Of a stretch of 40,010 nt of DNA, positions 325-10,916 are shown piece after piece; the first letter of the stretch is position 1; each line of letters begins with the position of its first letter. The stretch covers positions 1-40,010 of the forward strand of contig JACPGQ010000009.1 in assembly GCA_016188975.1 (NCBI GenBank). Direction: 5' to 3'. The notes beneath the pieces were generated by a model. The model worked only from the letters and a program-made list of their open reading frames with translations, searched no databases and was not told where the DNA came from. Both the position numbers and the translations under genes were made by a program. This DNA is from Candidatus Levyibacteriota bacterium. GTDB lineage: Bacteria; Patescibacteriota; Microgenomatia; Levybacterales; UBA12049.

Positions 325-436
325 AAAAGGTGTAGGAATAGTTGTAGCAGCTAGTATGGGTGTAGTAAAAAGGCAAAGGGTTTTACACTCTAACCACGCC
401 TTCTTACCATACTGGCAGCCACACCCAAACCTTTTA
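325..436. repeat. long imperfect hairpin element, family D copy 1
   Basis: A palindrome of about 110 bp fills the gap between virB4 and the small membrane protein. The outer arms read GTAGCAGCTAGTATGG on the left and, reverse-complemented, GTGGCTGCCAGTATGG on the right. The AAAAGG outer ends also pair, and the tip forms a GTAAAA/TTTTAC hairpin. A second copy, with the same arms and tip but opposite internal orientation, lies at 6743-6860. The gap (279-458) holds nothing else that I can identify. Confidence 0.75.
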
Positions 437-2467: not shown

Positions 2468-3127
2468 TTATTGTTTCACTTTTACCATCGGTGCGCTCAT
2501 GTCATCTGCCACCTGGGCAATCTGTAAATTATCCTGGTTATAGATGTTGTAGTAGAGCTTGACGAGCTCATCTTTTTCAAGCACTTTGGCGGATAGTGCG
2601 AGCCTGCGAAGCTGCGAAAGAAGCGCATCAGCTTTTGACAGGAGGGATTTTTGTGCAGTTTGCGCGAATGCAAGTTTTGCGGGCTCTCCTTTCTTGACAG
2701 TTGCTGTGGCGCCGGTTGCTCCTTGTTCAAGTGCGGAGTAGGTGATGACGATGTAAAACTGCTTGTTTAAGACGATATTTACTTTTATCATTTGGTGGAC
2801 AAATTCGCGGTAGAGCTTGATATGCTGAGCAAGCATCTCGTTTTTGGTGAGCTTTTCTTGTTCCTCAAGCGATTTCAGGTACGAAGTGATATCGACCCGC
2901 TGATTACGGACTATGATCTGAATGGGAAAGCCGAGTGAGTTGAGAAGCGAAGCGTAGGAGTAGATTTTGGCATCCTGTTCTTTTTTTGACAGAAGCGCAA
3001 AATTGCTTGCTGTCACCTCGATGACAATACACGCGTAACCTCCTTCAAGGAGGACTATTGAGTCAATAATATCGATAATTTCAGTGAATTTCTGCGTTGA
3101 CGCTTTCACTCGGGCAGCTTTTGCCAT
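2468..3127 (-). CDS. TraC-like (VirB4 N-terminal-like) T4SS accessory protein
   Basis: A 219-residue protein without signal peptide or TM segment. The N-terminus (KFTEIIDIIDSIVLLEGGYACIVIEV) and the following SYASLLNSLGFPIQIIVRNQRVDI resemble the N-terminal domain of VirB4/TraC ATPases, including the RVD-like loop, but there is no Walker motif. It ends with a Lys/Gln-rich tail. It lies directly upstream of virB4 in the same operon, which suggests that part of the VirB4 N-terminal function is carried by a separate polypeptide. CPR genomes commonly have such a protein beside PrgI and VirB4. The start at the ATG at 3127 is the first in frame. The exact biochemical role is unknown. Confidence 0.75.
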   Translation of the reverse strand: MAKAARVKASTQKFTEIIDIIDSIVLLEGGYACIVIEVTASNFALLSKKEQDAKIYSYASLLNSLGFPIQIIVRNQRVDITSYLKSLEEQEKLTKNEMLAQHIKLYREFVHQMIKVNIVLNKQFYIVITYSALEQGATGATATVKKGEPAKLAFAQTAQKSLLSKADALLSQLRRLALSAKVLEKDELVKLYYNIYNQDNLQIAQVADDMSAPMVKVKQ

Positions 3128-3140
3128 ACCTATAAAATAA

Positions 3141-3223
3141 AATATCCAATACTACCAATGACAAATATCCAATGTCCAATAACCAATTATCATTTGACAT
3201 TTGATATTGGACATTTGACATTC
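3141..3223. repeat. word-based palindrome, family B copy 2
   Basis: The gap upstream of the TraC-like gene is an imperfect palindrome of the same word set as 2371-2456. The left arm is AATATCCAATACTACCAAT; the right arm ends GATATTGGACATTTGACATTC. Copies 1 and 2 are direct repeats of each other about 770 bp apart, bracketing the TraC-like gene. Confidence 0.75.
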
Positions 3224-3242
3224 TTTTCAGCTAGCTGAAAAG
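3223..3242. repeat. perfect 20-bp palindrome over the prgI stop codon
   Basis: CTTTTCAGCTAGCTGAAAAG is a perfect inverted repeat. Its centre supplies the TAG stop of the PrgI gene. It could be a hairpin at the mRNA 3' end, but there is no following U-run, so I do not call it a terminator. Confidence 0.6.
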
Positions 3243-4568
3243 CGCCTTTCTTAATTCTTCTCTCTCATCATGTGACGTGATCTCAAGTGGCAAAATAACC
3301 TCTCCGTTTGCGACAAGTTCGACAACATCAAAACGGTGTTGTCCTTTTGGATCCTCAAACTCAATCGTATACGTGCCATTCGTCAGAGGCGTTGCCGAAG
3401 CAAATTGGCCTAGGCTATTAGTGCGGAATGCCCGGGCTGGCGTGCCATCTTTGTCTCTTACCTCAACGAGGATATTCTGGAGAACATTGTCACGAGGATC
3501 TTTGACAATGCCGACGATGAGGTTTGGCACCTCAGGCATGCGGGGAAGTCCAATTGATTTTGCCATATCTGCAGGAATCTTACGGATGGTCGGTGACGGG
3601 CTTGGCGTTGGAGGCGGAGGCTTCACTGCTGGCGCAACCGGCTTGAGCGCAGCTGCCTGCTGAGGTTGAGAGGAAGAAAGCTGCTGAGCGACTTGTTGGG
3701 CAAGCTGTTCTGCCTCCTGTGAAGGAAGGGGTTGCGTTTGAGGAGGAGTGGCACTCGTCGTATGCGCCAGACGTTCTCCTTTCAAAGCTTGCAGTTCTTT
3801 TTCAACCTGATCTTTTTGGGCAAGAAGGTTTTGTAATTTTTTCTCAAGTTCGACCACTTGTTCGTGTGAAGAGTGCGCTTTGGCGGCATCTTTTTCTTTT
3901 GCTTCGTGATCTTTTGCCTCATTGAGTGCGTACTTCACAGATGCTGCTTGCAGCGCGAGATTGGCTTCTTGTTCTTCCATTTCTTTTGGCGTAAGGAGTG
4001 CATCTGCTTTTTTCGGCTGATACTGTGAAGGAGCAGGTTGTTCGGGTGGCATGCGTTGAGGTGAAGGAGCAGGTTGAGGCGAAGGCATAGGGGTGCCAAC
4101 GTGCTGGAGAAACTCCTCCTCTCTCACATCAAGATGCGAGCTTGTAGGCTTTTGGACTGATTGTAAGTACTCCTGAAGGCGTTGTGCTTTATCTTCGTCT
4201 ACGACCGGAGTTGCCTGTCGTTTGGCCGGAACATGGGAAGTAGCGCGCATTGAGGGAATGGTAAAAAGCGCAATGCTGCCTCCTAATTTGTGGTAGGCAT
4301 ACTGGTTTGGTGTCACAAGTGCTTTTATGAAATACCCAATCATCGCGTCAGCTGGGCGCCCTTCGATAGGGAGAAACGCGAGCGCCGCACCGACAATGCC
4401 AAAAAGAACGCCAATTGGAATTTTAATAAATGGCGTCATGGGTGCGTAAAAAAAGACGAACGCCAGCACAGAGCCTACAGCGATGTAGGCAAACTGCTTC
4501 ACCGTCATGTCGCCGATGAGCTTAAACTGAAACCCCGTTACATCTTGGGGAATAGGATGATTTTCCAT
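3231..4568 (-). CDS. PrgI-type T4SS membrane protein with coiled-coil and carboxypeptidase-regulatory-like domain
   Basis: Residues 1-110 match the PrgI family (VirB3-like inner-membrane component): FQFKLIGDMTVKQFAYIAVG followed by two adjacent TM helices (about 25-42 and 50-68) and LPIEGRPADAMIGYFIKAL. Then comes a Pro/Gln-rich linker, a charged helical region (about 205-265, VVELEKKLQNLLAQKDQVEKE) likely to be a coiled coil, another Pro-rich stretch, and from about 345 a beta-rich domain (PNLIVGIVKDPRDNVLQNILVEVRD...) like CNA-B or carboxypeptidase regulatory folds. At 445 residues it is roughly four times the minimal PrgI length. It lies upstream of the TraC-like and virB4 genes, as in other CPR T4SS clusters. 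Whether the C-terminal domain is cytoplasmic or external cannot be read from sequence alone. Confidence 0.85.
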   Translation of the reverse strand: MENHPIPQDVTGFQFKLIGDMTVKQFAYIAVGSVLAFVFFYAPMTPFIKIPIGVLFGIVGAALAFLPIEGRPADAMIGYFIKALVTPNQYAYHKLGGSIALFTIPSMRATSHVPAKRQATPVVDEDKAQRLQEYLQSVQKPTSSHLDVREEEFLQHVGTPMPSPQPAPSPQRMPPEQPAPSQYQPKKADALLTPKEMEEQEANLALQAASVKYALNEAKDHEAKEKDAAKAHSSHEQVVELEKKLQNLLAQKDQVEKELQALKGERLAHTTSATPPQTQPLPSQEAEQLAQQVAQQLSSSQPQQAAALKPVAPAVKPPPPTPSPSPTIRKIPADMAKSIGLPRMPEVPNLIVGIVKDPRDNVLQNILVEVRDKDGTPARAFRTNSLGQFASATPLTNGTYTIEFEDPKGQHRFDVVELVANGEVILPLEITSHDEREELRKALFS

Positions 4569-4570
4569 AA

Positions 4571-5036
4571 ATAGAATAGCAAAACTATATAGCCATATAG
4601 CTATATAGCTATGTTGTTTTATCTCTCTAGTTTCTCTTCTGTAATTTTAATTAACCAATTTATACTCTGAGGCAAGCCAGTAAGCTGCTGTGAAATCGTT
4701 GAGTACTTTTCTTCAGAAATTAGACTTCTCGTTTTTGCCCTTTCTATCCAGTGAAGCGCTTCATAGGTTGAGCCTCTTGAATTGTAGAAAAACTTTTGCT
4801 TATCTTTCTTGTGATATCTCCCAAATCCTTCAGCGATATTTGCTGCAATCGAGTCGGTTGATTCTACAAATTGTGCTCCAAGTGTCTTTTTCTCAAACCA
4901 TCCCCATGTGATAACCTTATGCCAGACGATATCTGATACCTCAGTTGCTATTTGATACGGTTTAATCCGCTCTGGCAGTAGGAAATTAGTTGACACAATA
5001 ACTATCCAGCTATTTAGCTATAAAACTATAGCTCAA
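4571..5036. mobile_element. IVP cassette 1: four-helix-bundle gene between private inverted repeats
   Basis: The IVP gene at 4619-4996 is bounded by arms made of repeated TATAGC/ATAGCT words. The left arm (4571-4615) reads CTATATAGCCATATAGCTAT...; the right arm (4992-5036), reverse-complemented, reads TATAGCTAAATAGCTGGATAG followed by TTATTGTG. The arms align over about 35 bp with the same order of words. The unit sits within the T4SS operon between prgI and the first pilin gene. I see no target duplication and no transposase in the unit, so mobility is inferred. Confidence 0.55.
4619..4996 (-). CDS. four-helix-bundle protein (23S rRNA intervening-sequence protein family)
   Basis: A 125-residue all-helical protein. 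The signature SIAANIAEGFGRYHKKDKQ followed by a helix containing GSTYEALHWIERA is diagnostic of the IVP/S23 four-helix-bundle family, related in fold to the Avd accessory proteins of diversity-generating retroelements. The start is a GTG at 4996; this start lies in the right inverted-repeat arm. No rRNA gene is near, so the original context of the family (insertions in 23S rRNA) does not apply here. The molecular function of the family is not established. Its position in a T4SS operon between private inverted repeats suggests an inserted cassette rather than a secretion component. Confidence 0.85.
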   Translation of the reverse strand: MSTNFLLPERIKPYQIATEVSDIVWHKVITWGWFEKKTLGAQFVESTDSIAANIAEGFGRYHKKDKQKFFYNSRGSTYEALHWIERAKTRSLISEEKYSTISQQLTGLPQSINWLIKITEEKLER

Positions 5037-5141
5037 TAAGCATACTTCGTGAAAAATCATGATTCAAGATCATCAAAGTAGGTCATAATGAGCTATACCA
5101 ACGCCATTTTTGTGAAAAGAGGAGGAGGAGAGGTATTAGGT

Positions 5142-5257
5142 ATTAGTGAACTAGTTACTAGATTCTTTTCAAAGCCCGTCATTCCCGCCTTGAGCGGGAA
5201 TCAGATCCTCAATCAAGTTGAGGATGACGGGAGGAGATCCTAGTCACTAGTAACTGT
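5142..5257. repeat. nested palindromic element with REP-like core
   Basis: The outer arms read ACTAGTTACTAGATTC on the left and, reverse-complemented, ACTAGTGACTAGGATC on the right. The inner core (5175-5231) pairs CCCGTCAT with ATGACGGG and contains two small hairpins, TTCCCGC/GCGGGAA and CTCAA/TTGAG. The core resembles the widespread GTCATTCCCGC REP-like repeats. It fills most of the gap 5037-5261; I see no gene there. Confidence 0.7.
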
Positions 5258-5261
5258 CTCC

Positions 5262-5657
5262 TCAAGGTCCTGGGCCGGTTCCTGGCGGAAGCGGCGCAGG
5301 AGTAGGAGTCTGGCAATTAGTGAAGCCAAGTATCTTGATGCAGTCAGCGCCTGTGAGCTGGGCGACGACCGAGAGGATAAAGTAAGCAAGAAGCACAATG
5401 ATAAGGCCGATGATAGCGTAGGTGATTGTATGTCTTGCGCCTTCTGCTTGTTTTGGGTCGCCTCCTGAGCGGATATACTGGATACCTCCCCAGATAATGA
5501 GAAAGACTGCCACAGTTCCGGCGAGCGCTACTGCGATATTTAGGATGTTTTGGATAAGATAAGGAACACAAGCAAGGGTTGCAACGTAGTCAACCCTGGT
5601 TCCTTGAGTAAATGTCGAGAAACACTGTCCCCAAATATCTGGATCAGGTGCTGGCAT
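5262..5657 (-). CDS. VirB2/T4SS_pilin-like protein, divergent member
   Basis: A 131-residue protein with two TM helices (about 34-57 and 80-101) separated by the family loop YIRSGGDPKQAEGARHTITYAIIG. It has no clear cleavable signal peptide, unlike most of its neighbours, and its N-terminus holds Cys residues (CFSTFTQ, LACVPY). The C-terminus has CIKILGFTNC then a Pro/Gly-rich tail. VirB2-like subunits form the extracellular pilus of type IV secretion systems. It is the last of seven pilin-like genes in transcription order and nearest to prgI. The divergence from the other six suggests a specialised subunit, perhaps a base or tip component; that is inference. Confidence 0.8.
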   Translation of the reverse strand: MPAPDPDIWGQCFSTFTQGTRVDYVATLACVPYLIQNILNIAVALAGTVAVFLIIWGGIQYIRSGGDPKQAEGARHTITYAIIGLIIVLLAYFILSVVAQLTGADCIKILGFTNCQTPTPAPLPPGTGPGP

Positions 5658-5719
5658 AGATTAAGCGTAGCAGAGAAGTGATGGAAAAGAAAGATAAGAT
5701 GGAGCAATGGAGGAAATCT

Positions 5720-6235
5720 CTAGGCTTTCTTGCAAGATTTATTGTCATTATCAGGGTCTGAAATGCAGGAGAATGAGCCGTCTTCTGGTTGATTACATTC
5801 AAGTACTGTGCCATCTGGGTTTCTTGATTTTACGGTGCATGCCTGCAGCGTCGGGATCTTTACTTGACTTATGTCTTCTCCTGTTAAGAACGTGAGTACG
5901 AGGTTGAGGATGACGTACGCTAGAAAAACGATAATGAGACCGATAATCGAGGCAATAATGGTGTTGCGTGCAGTTTCAACGCCACTTTTATCTCCTCCTG
6001 AGGTAATCCACCTGATACCTCCATAGACGAGGAAGCCCAAAGCGAGAATGACAGCGATGACGAAAATAAACTGGATGACTGTACCCAATGCCTCGCCGAT
6101 TTGAATGCTTGATGCTTGGCAGGTTGAGAGCTCTGGGTTATTAATGCAAGGATCAATACTCTCACCTTCTTGAGCAAAAACGACAAGAGGAAAGAGGGCA
6201 AAAAGTCCAAATAAGCTGAGAAGTATTTTTTTCAT
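5720..6235 (-). CDS. T4SS_pilin-like protein with Cys-rich C-terminal extension
   Basis: A 171-residue protein with a signal peptide at residues 1-21 (ends PLVVFAQ), a short mature segment with a Cys pair (DPCINNPELSTCQAS), TM1 at about 50-72, the conserved loop YGGIRWITSGGDKSGVETAR, and TM2 at about 92-117. Beyond the core is a ~50-residue extension with five Cys (QACTV, LECNQ, FSCIS, KSCKKA). The core is nearly identical at DNA level to the next gene (6237-6656), pointing to recent duplication or gene conversion. The extension, absent from that neighbour, probably forms a small disulfide-bonded domain outside the membrane. Only one base separates it from the upstream gene, so the pair is surely cotranscribed. 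Confidence 0.85.
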   Translation of the reverse strand: MKKILLSLFGLFALFPLVVFAQEGESIDPCINNPELSTCQASSIQIGEALGTVIQFIFVIAVILALGFLVYGGIRWITSGGDKSGVETARNTIIASIIGLIIVFLAYVILNLVLTFLTGEDISQVKIPTLQACTVKSRNPDGTVLECNQPEDGSFSCISDPDNDNKSCKKA

Positions 6236-6236
6236 G

Positions 6237-6656
6237 CTAGGGAGTAGTAGGACCAGTAAGCTGCGGGATCGTAACAGATCCGATACCGCTTCCGGTTAAG
6301 AATGTCAAAATGAGGTTAAGAACGACATATGCCAGAAACACGATGATAAGACCTACAATTGCAGCGATAATGGTGTTGCGTGCAGTTTCAACGCCACTTT
6401 TATCTCCTCCTGAGGTAATCCATCTGATTCCCCCATAGACGAGGAAGCCTAAAGCGAGGATGACAGCGATGACGAAGATAAACTGGATTACTGTACCTAA
6501 TGCCTCGCCGATTTTTATGCCTGAGGCTTGACAGGTGCTAAGATCTGGATTGCTGATACATGGATCAATACTCTCGCCTTCTTGGGCGAAGGCAAGAGCA
6601 GGAGATGAGGCAAAAATAAGGAGCGTAGCCGCAAGCTTGGACAGCAAAGATTTCAT
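6237..6656 (-). CDS. T4SS_pilin-like protein, core form
   Basis: A 139-residue protein with signal peptide (MKSLLSKLAATLLIFASSPALAFAQ), Cys pair DPCISNPDLSTCQAS, two TM helices and loop YGGIRWITSGGDKSGVETAR. It ends soon after TM2 with GSGIGSVTIPQLTGPTTP, so it is the minimal form without the Cys-rich tail. It is the closest paralogue of the 5720-6235 gene, differing by scattered synonymous changes in the TM-encoding region. A short form paired with a long form fits the idea of a major shaft subunit plus decorated minor subunits, but relative expression cannot be read from the sequence. Confidence 0.87.
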   Translation of the reverse strand: MKSLLSKLAATLLIFASSPALAFAQEGESIDPCISNPDLSTCQASGIKIGEALGTVIQFIFVIAVILALGFLVYGGIRWITSGGDKSGVETARNTIIAAIVGLIIVFLAYVVLNLILTFLTGSGIGSVTIPQLTGPTTP

Positions 6657-6742
6657 GTATCTCTATCTTAGTCACAGTTTTTTCCGCTTGTCAAGCCCCG
6701 ATTACATCCGGGTGCAGACCCCCGCCTTCATGTCCGGGAGTG

Positions 6743-6860
6743 GTGAGGGGGAGCAAGGTATAGCTGCCAGTATGGAAAGAAGGTTTAGTAAAAAGGGAAT
6801 CCCCTTTACCTCTCAACTATACCCATACCAGCAGCCACAACCAAACCTACGCCTTCTCAC
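6743..6860. repeat. long imperfect hairpin element, family D copy 2
   Basis: Second copy of the element at 325-436. The left arm contains TAGCTGCCAGTATGG; the right arm, reverse-complemented, contains GTGGCTGCTGGTATGG. The outer GTGAG ends pair and the tip is GTAAAAAGGG/CCCCTTTAC. It lies in the 6657-6880 gap between two pilin genes. The rest of that gap shows no coding signal. Confidence 0.75.
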
Positions 6861-6880
6861 TGTTCCTTTATTCAGGATGA

Positions 6881-7327
6881 CTACGGTACGAGAGGATTGA
6901 AATTAAGTTGGCTGATTCCTGCTCCAGTGAGGAAGGTGAGGACGAAATTTAGGATGACGTAGGAGAGGAAGACGAGCACTAAGCCGACGATAGCAGCGAT
7001 GATGGTATTTCGTGCTCCTTCGACGTTGCCTTTGTCACCGCCTGACGTAATCCATTTGATGCCGCCATACACGAGGAAACCGAGAGAAATGATCACAGCG
7101 ATGACGAAGAATACCTCCACGGCAATGCCTATGAAATTTCCAAGACTTGCATCAATGCAGTATGAAGGTGGGTTAGCGCCTTCGCACAGGTTAACCTCTG
7201 TCAGCGTAACTTCTGAGAGAGTAGATATCTGAGGTTGTTGGGGCTCCTGAGGTTCTGCATGAATTGTTGGGGAAAAGAGGTATAGAGCGACAAGCGCAAA
7301 AACAAGAAGAGCGAAGAGCTTATGCAT
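6881..7327 (-). CDS. T4SS_pilin-like protein
   Basis: A 148-residue protein with signal peptide (MHKLFALLVFALVALYLFSPTIHAEP), a longer Gln/Pro-rich linker (EPQEPQQPQISTLSEVTLTE), Cys pair (LCEGANPPSYCIDAS), TM1, loop YGGIKWITSGGDKGNVEGAR and TM2, ending LNFNPLVP. The linker and the K/N changes in the loop mark it as an older duplicate than the 5720/6237 pair. It belongs to the same operon and strand as the other pilin genes, separated from the next one by the family D hairpin. Membrane protein before assembly, extracellular fibre afterwards, if it behaves as other VirB2 proteins do. Confidence 0.85.
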   Translation of the reverse strand: MHKLFALLVFALVALYLFSPTIHAEPQEPQQPQISTLSEVTLTEVNLCEGANPPSYCIDASLGNFIGIAVEVFFVIAVIISLGFLVYGGIKWITSGGDKGNVEGARNTIIAAIVGLVLVFLSYVILNFVLTFLTGAGISQLNFNPLVP

Positions 7328-7476
7328 ACGATTATTGTGACATTTGTTTCGATTCTATTGCAAGAGCGGAGAAGGACAAGCTTAAAAGTTAACTTAAACT
7401 ATTGATTATGCCCAAGCTAAAAGTATGTGTGGTACAAATTAGAATTCAAGGAGAATCGAAAAAGGAGACCTCGACG

Positions 7477-8007
7477 CTACAAGCATGCACCCGTGTTGGG
7501 ATTTATGCTCCGACCGCCATCGCAAATACAAGTGGGATTGCCGCTTATTATATTAACAATTTGACCATTACTACAAGAATTTATTCCTCCGCCTCCGCTA
7601 ATGCCGCTAAGGTTCGGAATGGTTATGCCACTCAGGCCACTCCCTGTCAAGAACAGGAGGACGAGGTTGAGTATGACGTAAGCCAGGAAAACGAGAATAA
7701 GCCCTACGATTGCAGAAATAATGGTATTTCTTGCAGTCTCCACACCGCCCTTATCACCACCCGAGGTAATCCACCTGATGCCGCCATACACGAGGAAGCC
7801 TAAAGCGACGATGACGGCAATGACAAAGAGGAACTGGATGATCAATCCAAACGCAGGGCCGAATGGCAAATCTGCAGTCGCGCACATGGCAAGATTGCTG
7901 TTTCCTCCGGCGCATGGATCAAGTTTTTGCTCATCTTGTGCAAAAACCGCAAGAGGAGTAAGAAACGTCAAAAAGAATGCAAAGATGATTGAAAGAACGA
8001 ATTTCAC
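7477..8007 (-). CDS. T4SS_pilin-like protein with Cys-rich C-terminal module
   Basis: A 176-residue protein with signal peptide (ends LTPLAVFAQ), mature start DEQKLDPCAGGNSNLAMCATAD, TM1, loop YGGIRWITSGGDKGGVETAR, TM2, then a Gly-rich linker (SGISGGGGINSC) and a small module with four Cys: SCSNG, TCICDGG and GACL. The spacing NPTCICDGGRSINPNTGACL is EGF/disulfide-like, but I do not recognise a named domain. The module differs from the tails at 5720 and 8216, so the array combines one conserved core with different exposed tails. It lies in the same operon. Confidence 0.85.
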   Translation of the reverse strand: MKFVLSIIFAFFLTFLTPLAVFAQDEQKLDPCAGGNSNLAMCATADLPFGPAFGLIIQFLFVIAVIVALGFLVYGGIRWITSGGDKGGVETARNTIISAIVGLILVFLAYVILNLVLLFLTGSGLSGITIPNLSGISGGGGINSCSNGQIVNIISGNPTCICDGGRSINPNTGACL

Positions 8008-8059
8008 GCTTTATCCTATCGTATGCCACAAACACCTCTGTGTCAAGAAGAGCGTCACT

Positions 8060-8190
8060 TCGTAACAGCTCACAAGTCTAACATGATTATTCTTCGAGCG
8101 AATCCGGCTAAGCCGGAGAGTCGAGAAGTTCTCGACTTCACTTCGTTACACTCGAACAATAACGTTTGTGTCAAGTGTGAGCAGTTACAA
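8060..8190. repeat. long imperfect palindrome between pilin genes
   Basis: The outer arms pair GTAACAGCTCACA on the left with TGTGAGCAGTTAC on the right. Further in, ATTATTCTTCGAGCG pairs with CACTCGAACAATAA, and the centre contains CCGGCTTAGCCGG-type and GTCGAGAA/TTCTCGAC hairpins. It accounts for most of the 8008-8215 gap. No gene is visible in it. Confidence 0.65.
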
Positions 8191-8215
8191 GTTATTGAGC
8201 ATGTAGGCTGCAGTA

Positions 8216-8725
8216 TTAAAAAGCGCTACAGGGAGTGGAATTTTCTTCTTCCCAATGGCAGCCCGCAGCGTTGCATGTTCCTTTGGTGTCAAAGATAGCG
8301 CAAGCTGCATCTTGATCATTTGTATCTCCAGTTGTGCCTCCAGTCAAATTTGGTATCGTAACTTCCCCTAACCCTTTTCCAGTCAAGAATAAGAGTACGA
8401 GGTTGAGTATGACGTAAGCGAGGAAGACGAGGATGAGTCCGACAATAGCAGCAATGATCGTATTCCGTGCTGTCTCAACCCCGCCCTTATCACCACCAGA
8501 GGTGATCCAACGTATTCCTCCATACACGAGGAATCCGAGCGCAAGGATGACAGCAATTACGAAGAGGAATTGGATGATAGTTCCAAAGGCAGTACCAAAA
8601 GGAAGGGTTGAGGTTTTACAAAGAGAAAGGTCAGCATTGCCTTCTGCGCAAGGATTGATGCTTTCTTGGGCAAAGGCCATGACAGGAAAAAGTAGGCTCA
8701 GAAGAAAGGGTAGAATATATTTCAT
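8216..8725 (-). CDS. T4SS_pilin-like protein with Cys-rich C-terminal tail
   Basis: A 169-residue protein with signal peptide (MKYILPFLLSLLFPVMAFAQ), Cys pair DPC-like (NPCAEGNADLSLCKTS), TM1, loop YGGIRWITSGGDKGGVETAR and TM2. It then has VTIPNLTGGTTGDTNDQD and a Cys-rich end with four Cys (AACAIF, GTCNAAGCHWEEE, TPCSAF). The CNAAGCHWE pattern resembles short Cys/Trp repeats found in surface proteins, but I make no domain call. The core is closest to the 7477-8007 gene. It is the second gene of the array in transcription order. Confidence 0.85.
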   Translation of the reverse strand: MKYILPFLLSLLFPVMAFAQESINPCAEGNADLSLCKTSTLPFGTAFGTIIQFLFVIAVILALGFLVYGGIRWITSGGDKGGVETARNTIIAAIVGLILVFLAYVILNLVLLFLTGKGLGEVTIPNLTGGTTGDTNDQDAACAIFDTKGTCNAAGCHWEEENSTPCSAF

Positions 8726-8740
8726 ATGTTCACTGTAGCA

Positions 8741-9073
8741 CTATTTTCCAAGCTGTGGAGCACCGAAAATATAGAGCACGAGATTGACGAGAAAAATTGA
8801 CAGAAAGATAATAACTAACCCGATAATAGCATAGATCATGCGATTTCTTGCAGCGGCCACTTTCTGCTTGTCGCCACTTGATGTTATCCATTGAATCCCG
8901 CCATAGATGAGGTAAAAAAGAGCTAGGATGACTCCAATGGCAAAAAGAACGCTGACTGCATTTCCTGTGATCATTTCTGCCAAGTCAATGCCGCCACTGG
9001 GAATATTGCCAGGTGCAGTAATCGTCACCTCTTTTCCGTCTGGACCGATGAGTTTGATGGCTAGATATTTCAT
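8741..9073 (-). CDS. T4SS_pilin-like protein, short first member
   Basis: A 110-residue protein, first of the array in transcription order. It lacks the cleavable signal peptide and Cys pair; instead it begins with a polar segment (MKYLAIKLIGPDGKEVTIT). TM1, the loop YGGIQWITSSGDKQKVAAARN and TM2 follow, ending YIFGAPQLGK. The SSGDKQKV loop resembles the wider VirB2/TrbC-like set in CPR genomes. Its start codon lies next to the left arm of IVP cassette 2, so the promoter region of the array may have been altered by that insertion. Confidence 0.82.
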   Translation of the reverse strand: MKYLAIKLIGPDGKEVTITAPGNIPSGGIDLAEMITGNAVSVLFAIGVILALFYLIYGGIQWITSSGDKQKVAAARNRMIYAIIGLVIIFLSIFLVNLVLYIFGAPQLGK

Positions 9074-9082
9074 AGGGTGTGT

Positions 9083-9575
9083 AGTAAGTTATGAGTTTTG
9101 GGTCGAGTTGTGAGCATGGGTTGTGAGTTTTTACTATACGGTATTTCTCCATGACCTCGCAAGAGTATAAATTCTTTTGCCAGCAATATTATATGTATCA
9201 ATAAGCTGATCACATAGCTCGACTGAAACAAGATGGGCATAAAGGTCTTTTGCAAAAGAAAGATGGGTTATCATTTCATTGCATTCACCAATAGAGTCAT
9301 CCAGGTGTTTTTGCCAATCTTTTTGGTGATTTTTACGGGCATATCCTTCGGCAATTACTGCAGGGATGGATTTTGATGCACGACGTAATTGATCTGCCAA
9401 GTCATATTTTTCTTCAGGAGGCAAAAGAGGAACAATTTGTTTATTCACCGCAATAGCAGCTTCATAGGTAGATTTATATACTTCCAGATCAAGAAAGCTT
9501 CTCGCTGCTTGATTCATATCTTCTCACCCTCACAACTCATCTCTCGACGCATAACTCAGAACACTTAACGCACTC
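9083..9575. mobile_element. IVP cassette 2: four-helix-bundle gene between private inverted repeats
   Basis: The IVP gene at 9134-9517 is flanked by word-built arms of a different sequence from cassette 1. The left arm (9083-9130) contains GAGTTTTGGGTCGAG then GTTGTGAG; the right arm (9521-9575), reverse-complemented, contains GAGTTATGCGTCGAG then GTTGTGAGGGTGAG. The 15-bp block matches at 13 positions, and the word GAGTT or GTTGTGAG recurs within each arm. It sits upstream of the pilin array, beside the insertion sequence. Mobility is inferred. Confidence 0.55.
9134..9517 (-). CDS. four-helix-bundle protein (23S rRNA intervening-sequence protein family)
   Basis: A 127-residue helical protein with the family signature LADQLRRASKSIPAVIAEGYAR, followed by a helix rich in aromatic and acidic residues (KHLDDSIGECNEMITHLSFAKDL in parts) and a final helix ending in RSWRNTV. 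It shares the family with the gene at 4619-4996 but is only distantly similar in sequence, so the two are not a recent local duplication. It starts at the ATG at 9517. It is enclosed by inverted repeats that lie just outside the reading frame. Function is unknown; related folds bind nucleic acid in diversity-generating retroelements (Avd). Confidence 0.85.
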   Translation of the reverse strand: MNQAARSFLDLEVYKSTYEAAIAVNKQIVPLLPPEEKYDLADQLRRASKSIPAVIAEGYARKNHQKDWQKHLDDSIGECNEMITHLSFAKDLYAHLVSVELCDQLIDTYNIAGKRIYTLARSWRNTV

Positions 9576-9618
9576 TCCTCATTATAGTGACCGAAAATAA
9601 TGAATACAATGATCCGAT

Positions 9619-10916
9619 TTAACTCACATAATTTCCTCCTGAAAGCCATTCGTTGACTCACGAGAAATTCCTCCCCAAAATTATCTCGATCTTTCTGTCC
9701 GTTAGGGGGTGAATTTCATAATGAAAAAACAGGAAAGATTAACGGTGGTAAGAGCATTTAGCAAAGAGTACAAACGGACATCTAAAAAGCAAAAGGGTGT
9801 CCTTTTGGAACGCTTGGTACAAACGACAGGCTATTCCAGAAAACACTTGATGGACATTCTCTCTCAGTTCCCAAAAGCAAAACGGATCAGACGAAAACGG
9901 GTATCCAAATATCTTTTTGTCATCAAATATCTGCGGAAGCTGTGGGCAATTTCCAATTATGCTTGTGGCCAACGATTAGCACCAATGATTCCATCATATC
10001 TGGCAGCACTCAGACGACACAAAGAGTTGACCGTTACAAAAGAAGAACGAAAACTGCTTTGTTCCATTAGCCACGCGACAATTGACCGTCTTTTGAAGCA
10101 CGAACGTAAAAGAATCAATCTTAAGGGACGCTCCAGAACAAAACCAGGGACACTCTTAAAACATCAAATACCTATCAGAACCTTTGCTGATTGGAATGAG
10201 AAGCAACCGGGATTTCTGGAAATTGACACAGTACACCATTGCGGCGATAGTCTCAGGGGAGACTATGTCCACACTCTGGATACAACTGATGTTTTTACAG
10301 GCTGGAATGAGTGCAGGGCCTTTATGGGAAAATCTGAGAGAAATACCGTTGAGGCACTCGAGCATATCAAACAAAACAAACTCCCCTTTCCCATGCTCGG
10401 AATTGACTTTGACACAGGAGGAGAGTTTGTGAATTACCATCTTATCAGATACTCAGATAGAAACAAGATCAGCTATACCAGAGCTCGGGAGGGGAAGAAG
10501 AATGACCAGAACTACATTGAGCAGCAAAACTATTCCGTTGTCAGACGGTTTGTCGGCTACCAACGGTTGGATACGCCAGAACAGCTGCAAATGCTCAACC
10601 AGATGTACGATCTGTTATCTGATTACCAGAATTTCTTTCAACCGGTCATGCGCTTAAAAGAGAAAGTCAGAAACGGGACAAAGGTAACCAGACGGTACGA
10701 TAAACCAAAGACAGCATATCAGAGAGTGTTAGCGGATAAACGTATTACTCAAGAGGCAAAGAAAAAACTCAGAGAGCGATACAGTACACTCAATCCAAAA
10801 AGGCTGCTTCTCAAGATAACAAGTCTTGGAAAAAAGTTGTCGAAACGGTAAATCGTTTCAGGAGGATTTTATTTGATTCAATAACTCGGTTTCGAGAGGA
10901 TTCTCTCGTGAGTTAA
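9619..10916 (+). mobile_element. insertion sequence with DDE transposase, inserted in the 3' end of ftsA
   Basis: The inferred element is about 1.3 kb. The left end starts TTAACTCACATAATTTCCTC; the right end, reverse-complemented, starts TTAACTCACGAGAGAATCCT. The first nine bases are identical and similarity continues to ...CTGAAA/...CTCGAAA. A second copy of the motif occurs inside the left end (TTGACTCACGAGAAATTCC from 9654), as expected of repeated transposase-binding sites. Outside the ends, CGAT on the left and CGAA on the right leave the exact boundary open by a few bases, and I see no clear target duplication. The right end is read as the last codons of ftsA. Confidence 0.75.
9721..10851 (+). 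CDS. transposase with rve/DDE integrase core
   Basis: A 376-residue protein from the ATG at 9721 (AGGGGG at 9704-9709 is a plausible ribosome site; a GTG at 9709 is also open). The N-terminal ~110 residues are basic and helical, suited to DNA binding. The catalytic core shows D169 in FLEIDTVHHCG, D231 in LGIDFDTGGEF and E267 in NDQNYIEQQNY. That spacing, with 35 residues between the second D and the E, is typical of the rve superfamily. The C-terminus is Lys/Arg-rich. It resembles the IS481/ISNCY-like group of 'integrase catalytic domain' transposases, but I cannot name the IS family. The frame is intact, so the element may still be active. Confidence 0.88.
   Translation: MKKQERLTVVRAFSKEYKRTSKKQKGVLLERLVQTTGYSRKHLMDILSQFPKAKRIRRKRVSKYLFVIKYLRKLWAISNYACGQRLAPMIPSYLAALRRHKELTVTKEERKLLCSISHATIDRLLKHERKRINLKGRSRTKPGTLLKHQIPIRTFADWNEKQPGFLEIDTVHHCGDSLRGDYVHTLDTTDVFTGWNECRAFMGKSERNTVEALEHIKQNKLPFPMLGIDFDTGGEFVNYHLIRYSDRNKISYTRAREGKKNDQNYIEQQNYSVVRRFVGYQRLDTPEQLQMLNQMYDLLSDYQNFFQPVMRLKEKVRNGTKVTRRYDKPKTAYQRVLADKRITQEAKKKLRERYSTLNPKRLLLKITSLGKKLSKR

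Follow-up and report, generated by a model that had tools for sequence, protein, structure and literature searches.

The 23S rRNA intervening sequences (IVSs) of Leptospira and Coxiella encode a protein called IVP or S23p and are described as having a 28-bp stem and GACAGAT heptamers; in Coxiella these heptamers stand in the arm before the S23p gene, and their copy number varies between strains (PMC4990558). IVP is also contained in rRNA inserts of the candidate phyla radiation (CPR) (PMC11270868). REPIN/RAYT systems combine doublets of repetitive extragenic palindromic (REP) sequences, which form hairpins, with REP-associated tyrosine transposases (PMC3116915, PMC2817692), and their palindromes bear a GTAG or CGTC tag at one end (PMC3733652). 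For diversity-generating retroelements (DGRs), homing needs a hairpin or cruciform in the target DNA (PMC3240598). Here we describe two IVP genes, IVP1 and IVP2, in a stretch of 40,010 nucleotides from Candidatus Levyibacteriota bacterium (contig JACPGQ010000009.1, positions 1 to 40,010; hereafter the window), together with IVP genes of its family and of other bacteria. IVP genes are flanked by inverted arms in which a short word, a heptad or sometimes an octad, is repeated in tandem, and in the window genome each IVP has its own family of hairpins. This tie between IVP and heptad hairpins appears to be what is new; 23S rRNA IVSs, CPR rRNA inserts, orphan heptad repeats and REPIN/RAYT were already known, and we found no link between IVP and heptad hairpins in the literature that we searched, preprints excluded.

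A sequence-only reading of the window had claimed that both genes are enclosed by inverted arms of recurring short words, and had taken this to indicate a type of cassette whose small helical protein accompanies or maintains palindromic repeats. Both open reading frames (ORFs) are present where it had placed them (Table 1) and match PF05635, with 70.8 bits for IVP1 and 75 bits for IVP2 at a Pfam cut-off of 33.8 bits. The arms are real, word-built and inverted at each gene. Those of IVP1 (4588-4617 and 4993-5022) are 77% complementary over 30 nt and consist of the tandem 8-nt word TAGCTATA, and those of IVP2 (9079-9114 and 9529-9564) are 72% complementary over 36 nt, with the word GTTRTGAG/GAGTTGTG. 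The IVP1 element sits between the promoter and the ATG of a prgI-like gene of a type IV secretion system (T4SS).

Among 288 ordinary small ORFs of the window genome, 6.6% have flanks as inverted-similar as those of IVP1 and 3.5% as those of IVP2. By themselves the two window loci are thus moderately unusual at most and would not convince, which is partly because gene-less hairpins are common in this genome. The arms are best judged as a class. PF05635 was found in 55 of the 73 genomes of the window's family that we searched, in up to 11 copies per genome, and our sample consists of 123 distinct IVP genes with flanks, from draft genomes with greedy ORF calling and simple word scoring. The inverted score, obtained by locally aligning the 250 nt to the left of the gene with the reverse-complemented 250 nt to its right, has a median of 30 at IVP genes against 18 at 1938 control placements in the same loci (Mann-Whitney p ~1e-67), and at 76% of the IVP loci it is attained by at most one of 100 dinucleotide shuffles. 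The direct-orientation score is not elevated (19 against 19 in controls). Self-identity of the flanks is in excess at lags of 7, 14, 21 and 28 only (0.10, 0.07, 0.04 and 0.01), with no excess in 1259 controls; 86 loci have their best lag at 7, and 23 have it at 8. Words of the 5' flank are found again in the 3' flank when the latter is reverse-complemented, seldom in the other orientation, and the median number of heptads per arm is 4.7-4.9. A tandem scan of 1.2 Mb gave 118 arrays of period 7 or 8 in the 164 kb that lie no more than 200 nt from an IVP gene and 87 in the other 1030 kb, other periods being nearly empty apart from a few arrays at 9. The anatomy, the heptad period and the strict inversion are established by these results. 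At one locus of the sister species G001 (L266, C7:6550-7120) each IVP flank is a whole hairpin, with a direct duplication of ~45 nt common to both and a direct score of 116, which looks as if the hairpin had been duplicated around the gene. Direct scores are likewise high at L085, L107 and L079.

The same organisation extends over a wide range of bacteria. With a single IVP as query we collected 80 named loci from GTDB genomes, of which 78 were analysed, from 17 named phylum-level groups that include Bacteroidota, Patescibacteria, Deltaproteobacteria, Planctomycetota, Omnitrophota, Firmicutes, Acidobacteriota, Chloroflexota and Nitrospirota. The best lag is 7 or 8 in 73 of the 78 loci, from 17 groups, and each group has a median inverted score above that of its own controls (24-74 against 16-24). 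Arm words in Chloroflexota and Nostoc are GC-rich, and cyanobacterial plasmids show the same pattern with the words AGTCAGR, GGGAGTA and GGGTGTA. No IVP match was found in phages. In both Chloroploca species (L229, L230) several GGGTCTC heptad arrays lie within a few kb of the IVP gene; a stringent tandem scan of two 50-kb plasmid stretches, from Nostoc and Trichormus, gave no heptad array, and solo arrays are therefore not dense everywhere.

A tree and word comparison of the 123 IVPs shows that clades have common words across genera. One clade has ATTGTTNN octamers in 7 genomes, another unites the window's IVP1 with IVPs of two further genomes (G006 and G009) under the word TRGYTRAA, and further clade words are TAGAANN (8 loci), TTAGTCT (4), TTTTGAW, TCAAANN, TAGCGTN and GAATTA. 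The Mantel rho between protein and word reaches 0.15, whereas none of 300 permutations exceeded 0.03. IVP pairs from different genomes with 60-80% identity agree at fourfold-degenerate sites at the level of composition (0.34 against 0.32; 0.31 against 0.31), and the same pairs share arm words in 34-74% of cases, against less than 1% of unrelated pairs. As these words are shared at saturated fourfold sites, common ancestry of neutral DNA cannot account for them. Co-evolution of protein and word at saturated divergence is established, the arm word being kept in step with the IVP protein.

Hairpins with the same words also occur without a gene. Profiles seeded from the arms were read over 0.82 of the 1.31 Mb (63%) of the window genome, G000, and returned five hairpin families, F1 to F5, one per IVP, with 10, 2, 14, 8 and 10 gene-less copies, 44 altogether. 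Nearly all of these were matched on both strands, and the same profiles had no match on reversed sequence. Although the DNA is 88% coding, 39 of the 44 gene-less hairpins are intergenic, and for F1, F3, F4 and F5 one gene-bearing copy each was found. The arm core GGTATRGCTGCYAGTATRG of the IVP on contig C63 has 21 matches in the window genome against 3 for the reversed pattern, mainly as inverted pairs ~66 nt apart, while one pair, 474 nt apart, surrounds the IVP gene. G001 in turn is rich in hairpins of TAGCGTY heptads, the word of its own IVP, in inverted pairs, with 83 pattern matches against 29 reversed. At the place of the F3 hairpin L301:8028-8165 it has another hairpin, whose TAGCGTTTA words are again those of its own IVP.

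Filled and empty sites could be compared across the window's family at the intergenic spot upstream of the prgI-like gene. The promoter is conserved there, and in many genomes the ATG follows it directly. In 13 genomes an IVP element lies precisely between promoter and ATG, co-oriented in 13 of 13, and in 19 genomes a pilin gene stands directly upstream of prgI without an IVP. Presence and absence are found within genera (G006/G007; G009 and G010/G011; G059/G060), and the IVPs at this leader belong to several well-separated clades of the tree, so that insertion here has been recurrent. In G001 the prgI leader contains gene-less inverted arms of TCAAAGC words, and the leader of its orthologue of the pilin gene downstream of IVP2 contains an unrelated IVP with ACTAGGT words; the same sites are occupied by different families in sister species. 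Two plasmids of Nostoc ATCC 53789 have a homologous operon with IVP elements at two gene junctions, a different one in each, so that either plasmid shows the other's site in its empty state. IVP elements also separate nrdB/nrdA, cas6/cas4 and cas10/cmr3. In the latter two cases an IVP gene with heptad arms is found inside a type I-D CRISPR operon (L255:2495-2863) and inside a III-B CRISPR operon (L258:2492-2848); these genes may be hitch-hiking insertions and not parts of those systems, and a survey of CRISPR-linked genes does include a '23S rRNA IVP' (PMC10910872). The 13/13 co-orientation at the prgI leader is notable beside the unbiased overall set, where 100 of 123 are co-oriented against a background of 75% (p = 0.10), and we rejected orientation bias as proof of RNA-level insertion.

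The sequence-only reading had proposed to check its cassette class in relatives by inverted arms at IVP flanks, by a correlation of IVP subfamily with arm word and by empty sites. The arms are present far beyond chance, the correlation is seen in the clades, the Mantel test and the fourfold-site control, and orthologous sites are occupied in some genomes and vacant in others, all of which supports such a class.

We give a probability of roughly 0.6 to the reading that IVP is a word-specific binding partner which, in the manner of a RAYT, maintains its hairpin family and probably contributes to its spread or rewriting. Each IVP gene would then be the gene-bearing, single-copy member of a dispersed hairpin family with tandem heptad (sometimes octad) arms. 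The protein would most likely be ring-forming and nucleic-acid-binding, and would recognise its own family's word in a hairpin as a RAYT recognises the REP of its REPIN; the hairpin might form in RNA or, at forks or transcription bubbles, in single-stranded DNA. The AlphaFold2 model of IVP2 (pLDDT 92.9) is matched by Foldseek to 2GSC (TM 0.83/0.90), to 2RLD (0.71/0.83) and to the Avd subunit of a DGR ribonucleoprotein, 8UB7_E (0.67/0.76), and 2GSC is a homopentamer (PMC4990558). A stoichiometry of about five subunits to about five heptads per arm might follow. Invariant IVP residues include Q43, E57, G58, G77 and E81. The 5' arm, IVP, the 3' arm and the downstream gene could be transcribed as one unit, which would place the gene in the hairpin loop, as in the 23S rRNA IVSs. 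Gene-less hairpins would be maintained, and probably spread or rewritten with the help of IVP, where inserts are tolerated, that is in intergenic regions and leaders. Where sister species share a site, one family has been fully replaced by another, which favours an element that spreads or rewrites itself.

IVP elements work like REPIN/RAYT, yet they are not members of it, as IVP has no Y1 domain. Both systems have a single-copy gene between inverted repeats, scattered extragenic inverted pairs without a gene that form hairpins, and several distinct gene-repeat families per genome, with gene and repeat co-evolving. However, IVP is a PF05635 four-helix bundle whereas RAYT is a Y1 HUH transposase, and the two window IVPs matched only PF05635 in Pfam, with no transposase or nuclease domain. 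The arms of IVP elements consist of heptad or octad words in tandem, wholly different from one family to the next, and their hairpins occur in genomes without a Y1 match. A dependence on Y1 or RAYT was rejected for the absence of Y1 from several IVP-rich genomes. With the 23S rRNA IVSs the elements share an IVP/S23 ORF in the loop of long terminal inverted repeats; they differ in being located in intergenic regions and T4SS mRNA leaders, not in rRNA (an Rfam search of the window gave no matches, and it contains no rRNA), and in being accompanied by gene-less hairpin families. The IVSs of 23S rRNA may represent this same class at rRNA sites. Avd has the same four-helix fold, and hairpin DNA is involved in DGR homing, but the window genome, a 94% complete draft, has no match to the reverse transcriptase family PF00078. 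The genomes G009 and G010, with 9-10 IVPs, have none either, and dependence on a reverse transcriptase was rejected. We noticed no pair of template and variable repeats, for which no targeted search was made.

Several points weigh against the RAYT-like reading. The IVP domain is only mildly basic, with a median net charge of +2, and carries no known catalytic motif. Arms are poor at some IVPs (L003, L048, L054, L009), the IVP2 hairpin family F2 is thin with its 2 copies, and the scan for hairpins covered 0.82 of the 1.31 Mb. We observed no movement, nor did we find a clean target-site duplication; there is a possible one of 5-6 bp, TTCTA(G), on the Nostoc plasmid pNsp_a only, and none is obvious for families F3-F5. 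Of the earlier description 'mobile or repeat-associated' the second half holds; the first we infer, having seen neither a transposition event nor a clean target-site duplication, nor an enzyme for it.

The strongest rival gives the same binding a role in host RNA regulation. The hairpins would be elements of mRNA processing, stability or attenuation, IVP would be a TRAP-like regulator that coats the words, and hairpins would multiply by slippage and recombination, not via IVP. TRAP is a ring protein that binds tandem short motifs in a leader. Hairpins and IVP elements do lie between co-transcribed genes and in leaders, and the GGGNATC heptads of Xanthomonas and Nostoc are mostly transcribed (PMC4692102). 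However, sites shared by sister species show a complete turnover of words and families, unlike what a conserved regulon would show, and the scattered near-identical cores need a copying process. We consider this rival somewhat unlikely, though to be taken seriously. Improbable is a passive, IVS-like insert whose arms serve only excision by RNase III from the transcript and are not recognised by IVP. The 23S rRNA IVSs have the same anatomy, including the Coxiella heptamers, and RNase III cuts their stem (PMC4990558); but any duplex would suit RNase III, which leaves the strict heptads and the protein-word co-evolution unexplained, as it does the gene-less families. It is still less probable that the hairpins are REPINs or miniature inverted-repeat transposable elements mobilised by a transposase, either Y1 (RAYT) or of another kind, with IVP genes landed inside. 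The window genome has four Y1 transposases, but G001 is full of hairpins and has no Y1 match, nor have the IVP-rich genomes G013, G031, G044, G054 and G063, and the word follows the IVP clade. Chance, or low complexity of AT-rich flanks, is favoured by the modest ranks of the two window loci but is refuted by the inverted scores and the 7-nt period of the class, with same-locus controls and shuffles; the GC-rich words of Chloroflexota and Nostoc also speak against it.

If the RAYT-like reading is right, it would bear on several classes of dispersed heptads. Cyanobacterial short tandemly repeated repetitive (STRR) sequences are dispersed heptad repeats. Like the IVP arms, they and the GGGNATC and TAACTGA repeats are tandem heptads in intergenic regions; the difference is that no protein partner had been named. 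For TAACTGA of Beggiatoaceae a repeat-binding protein was proposed as a possible mobile element (PMC4679880), and GGGNATC forms ~70 inverted pairs per Xanthomonas genome (PMC4692102), a candidate link being XCC0516 (2GSC), the IVP of X. campestris. The IVP/S23 family is widespread, and its function has so far been given only as 'encoded in 23S rRNA inserts'. The code between protein clade and arm word provides IVP with a concrete, testable ligand and the heptad repeats with a candidate partner, and points to a second, independent case of REPIN/RAYT-like organisation, here around a protein that is no relative of transposases. A much broader proposal, possible although on balance doubtful, is that IVP/S23 forms bacteria-wide two-part elements in which a non-enzymatic ring protein, one heptad per subunit, might drive hairpins to be copied or rewritten into intergenic sites at replication without a transposase of their own, the 23S rRNA IVSs and the cyanobacterial, Xanthomonas and Beggiatoaceae heptads included.

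Table 1. IVP elements, gene-less hairpins and adjoining features of the window.
Feature	Position	Strand	Basis
IVP1 gene, PF05635, 125 aa, GTG start, TAGCTAAA octamer clade	4619..4996	-	Pfam; tree groups it with same-leader IVPs of G009 and G006
IVP1 5' arm, words TAGCTAAA/ATAGCTGG; begins at most ~10 nt from promoter -10	4997..5037	-	
IVP1 3' arm, inverted words	4571..4618	-	nhmmer match 4574-4630 to hairpin family F1
Promoter of prgI-like gene, TTTGACC..TTTTGAT.ATCTTGAA...ATTTTTCACG..TA..CT, conserved in family	5037..5088	-	empty versus filled sites
prgI-like T4SS gene, 5' leader contains IVP1	3231..4568	-	PF12666, 30.9 bits; orthologues
IVP2 gene, PF05635, 127 aa	9134..9517	-	Pfam; AlphaFold2; Foldseek
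IVP2 5' arm, GAGTTGTGAG words	9526..9564	-	
IVP2 3' arm	9079..9131	-	
Promoter-like TTGTAT-17-TATAAT directly upstream of IVP2 5' arm	9581..9609	-	consensus match only
T4SS pilin gene, downstream of IVP2	8741..9073	-	PF18895
Gene-less hairpin, family F5, GGTATAG words, gene copy on contig C63	6756..6848	.	
Gene-less hairpin, family F5	334..432	.	
Gene-less hairpin, family F3, TTGAAGTG/TTTGATA words, gene copy on contig C47	38903..39040	.	
Probable gene-less inverted arms, ACTAGT words, around second hairpin; like arms of G001 IVP L008	5129..5256	.	compared by eye
Gene-less palindromic heptad array, ATTTGAC/ATTGGAC; related array 2414-2461	3154..3225	.	tandem scan

The two ATTTGAC/ATTGGAC arrays bracket a 219-aa ORF (2468-3127) which has no Pfam match and is not an IVP, and their word is none of the five IVP words found in the window genome. 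Between prgI and a likely insertion sequence, six paralogous T4SS pilin genes (PF18895) lie in a row at 5262-9073(-), with hairpins and IVP elements interspersed among them. Beside IVP2, a 380-aa ORF at 9709-10851(+) has no Pfam match and resembles an insertion-sequence transposase; the sequence upstream of it (~9620-9665) is found again at the start of contig C21 (L314:36-121).

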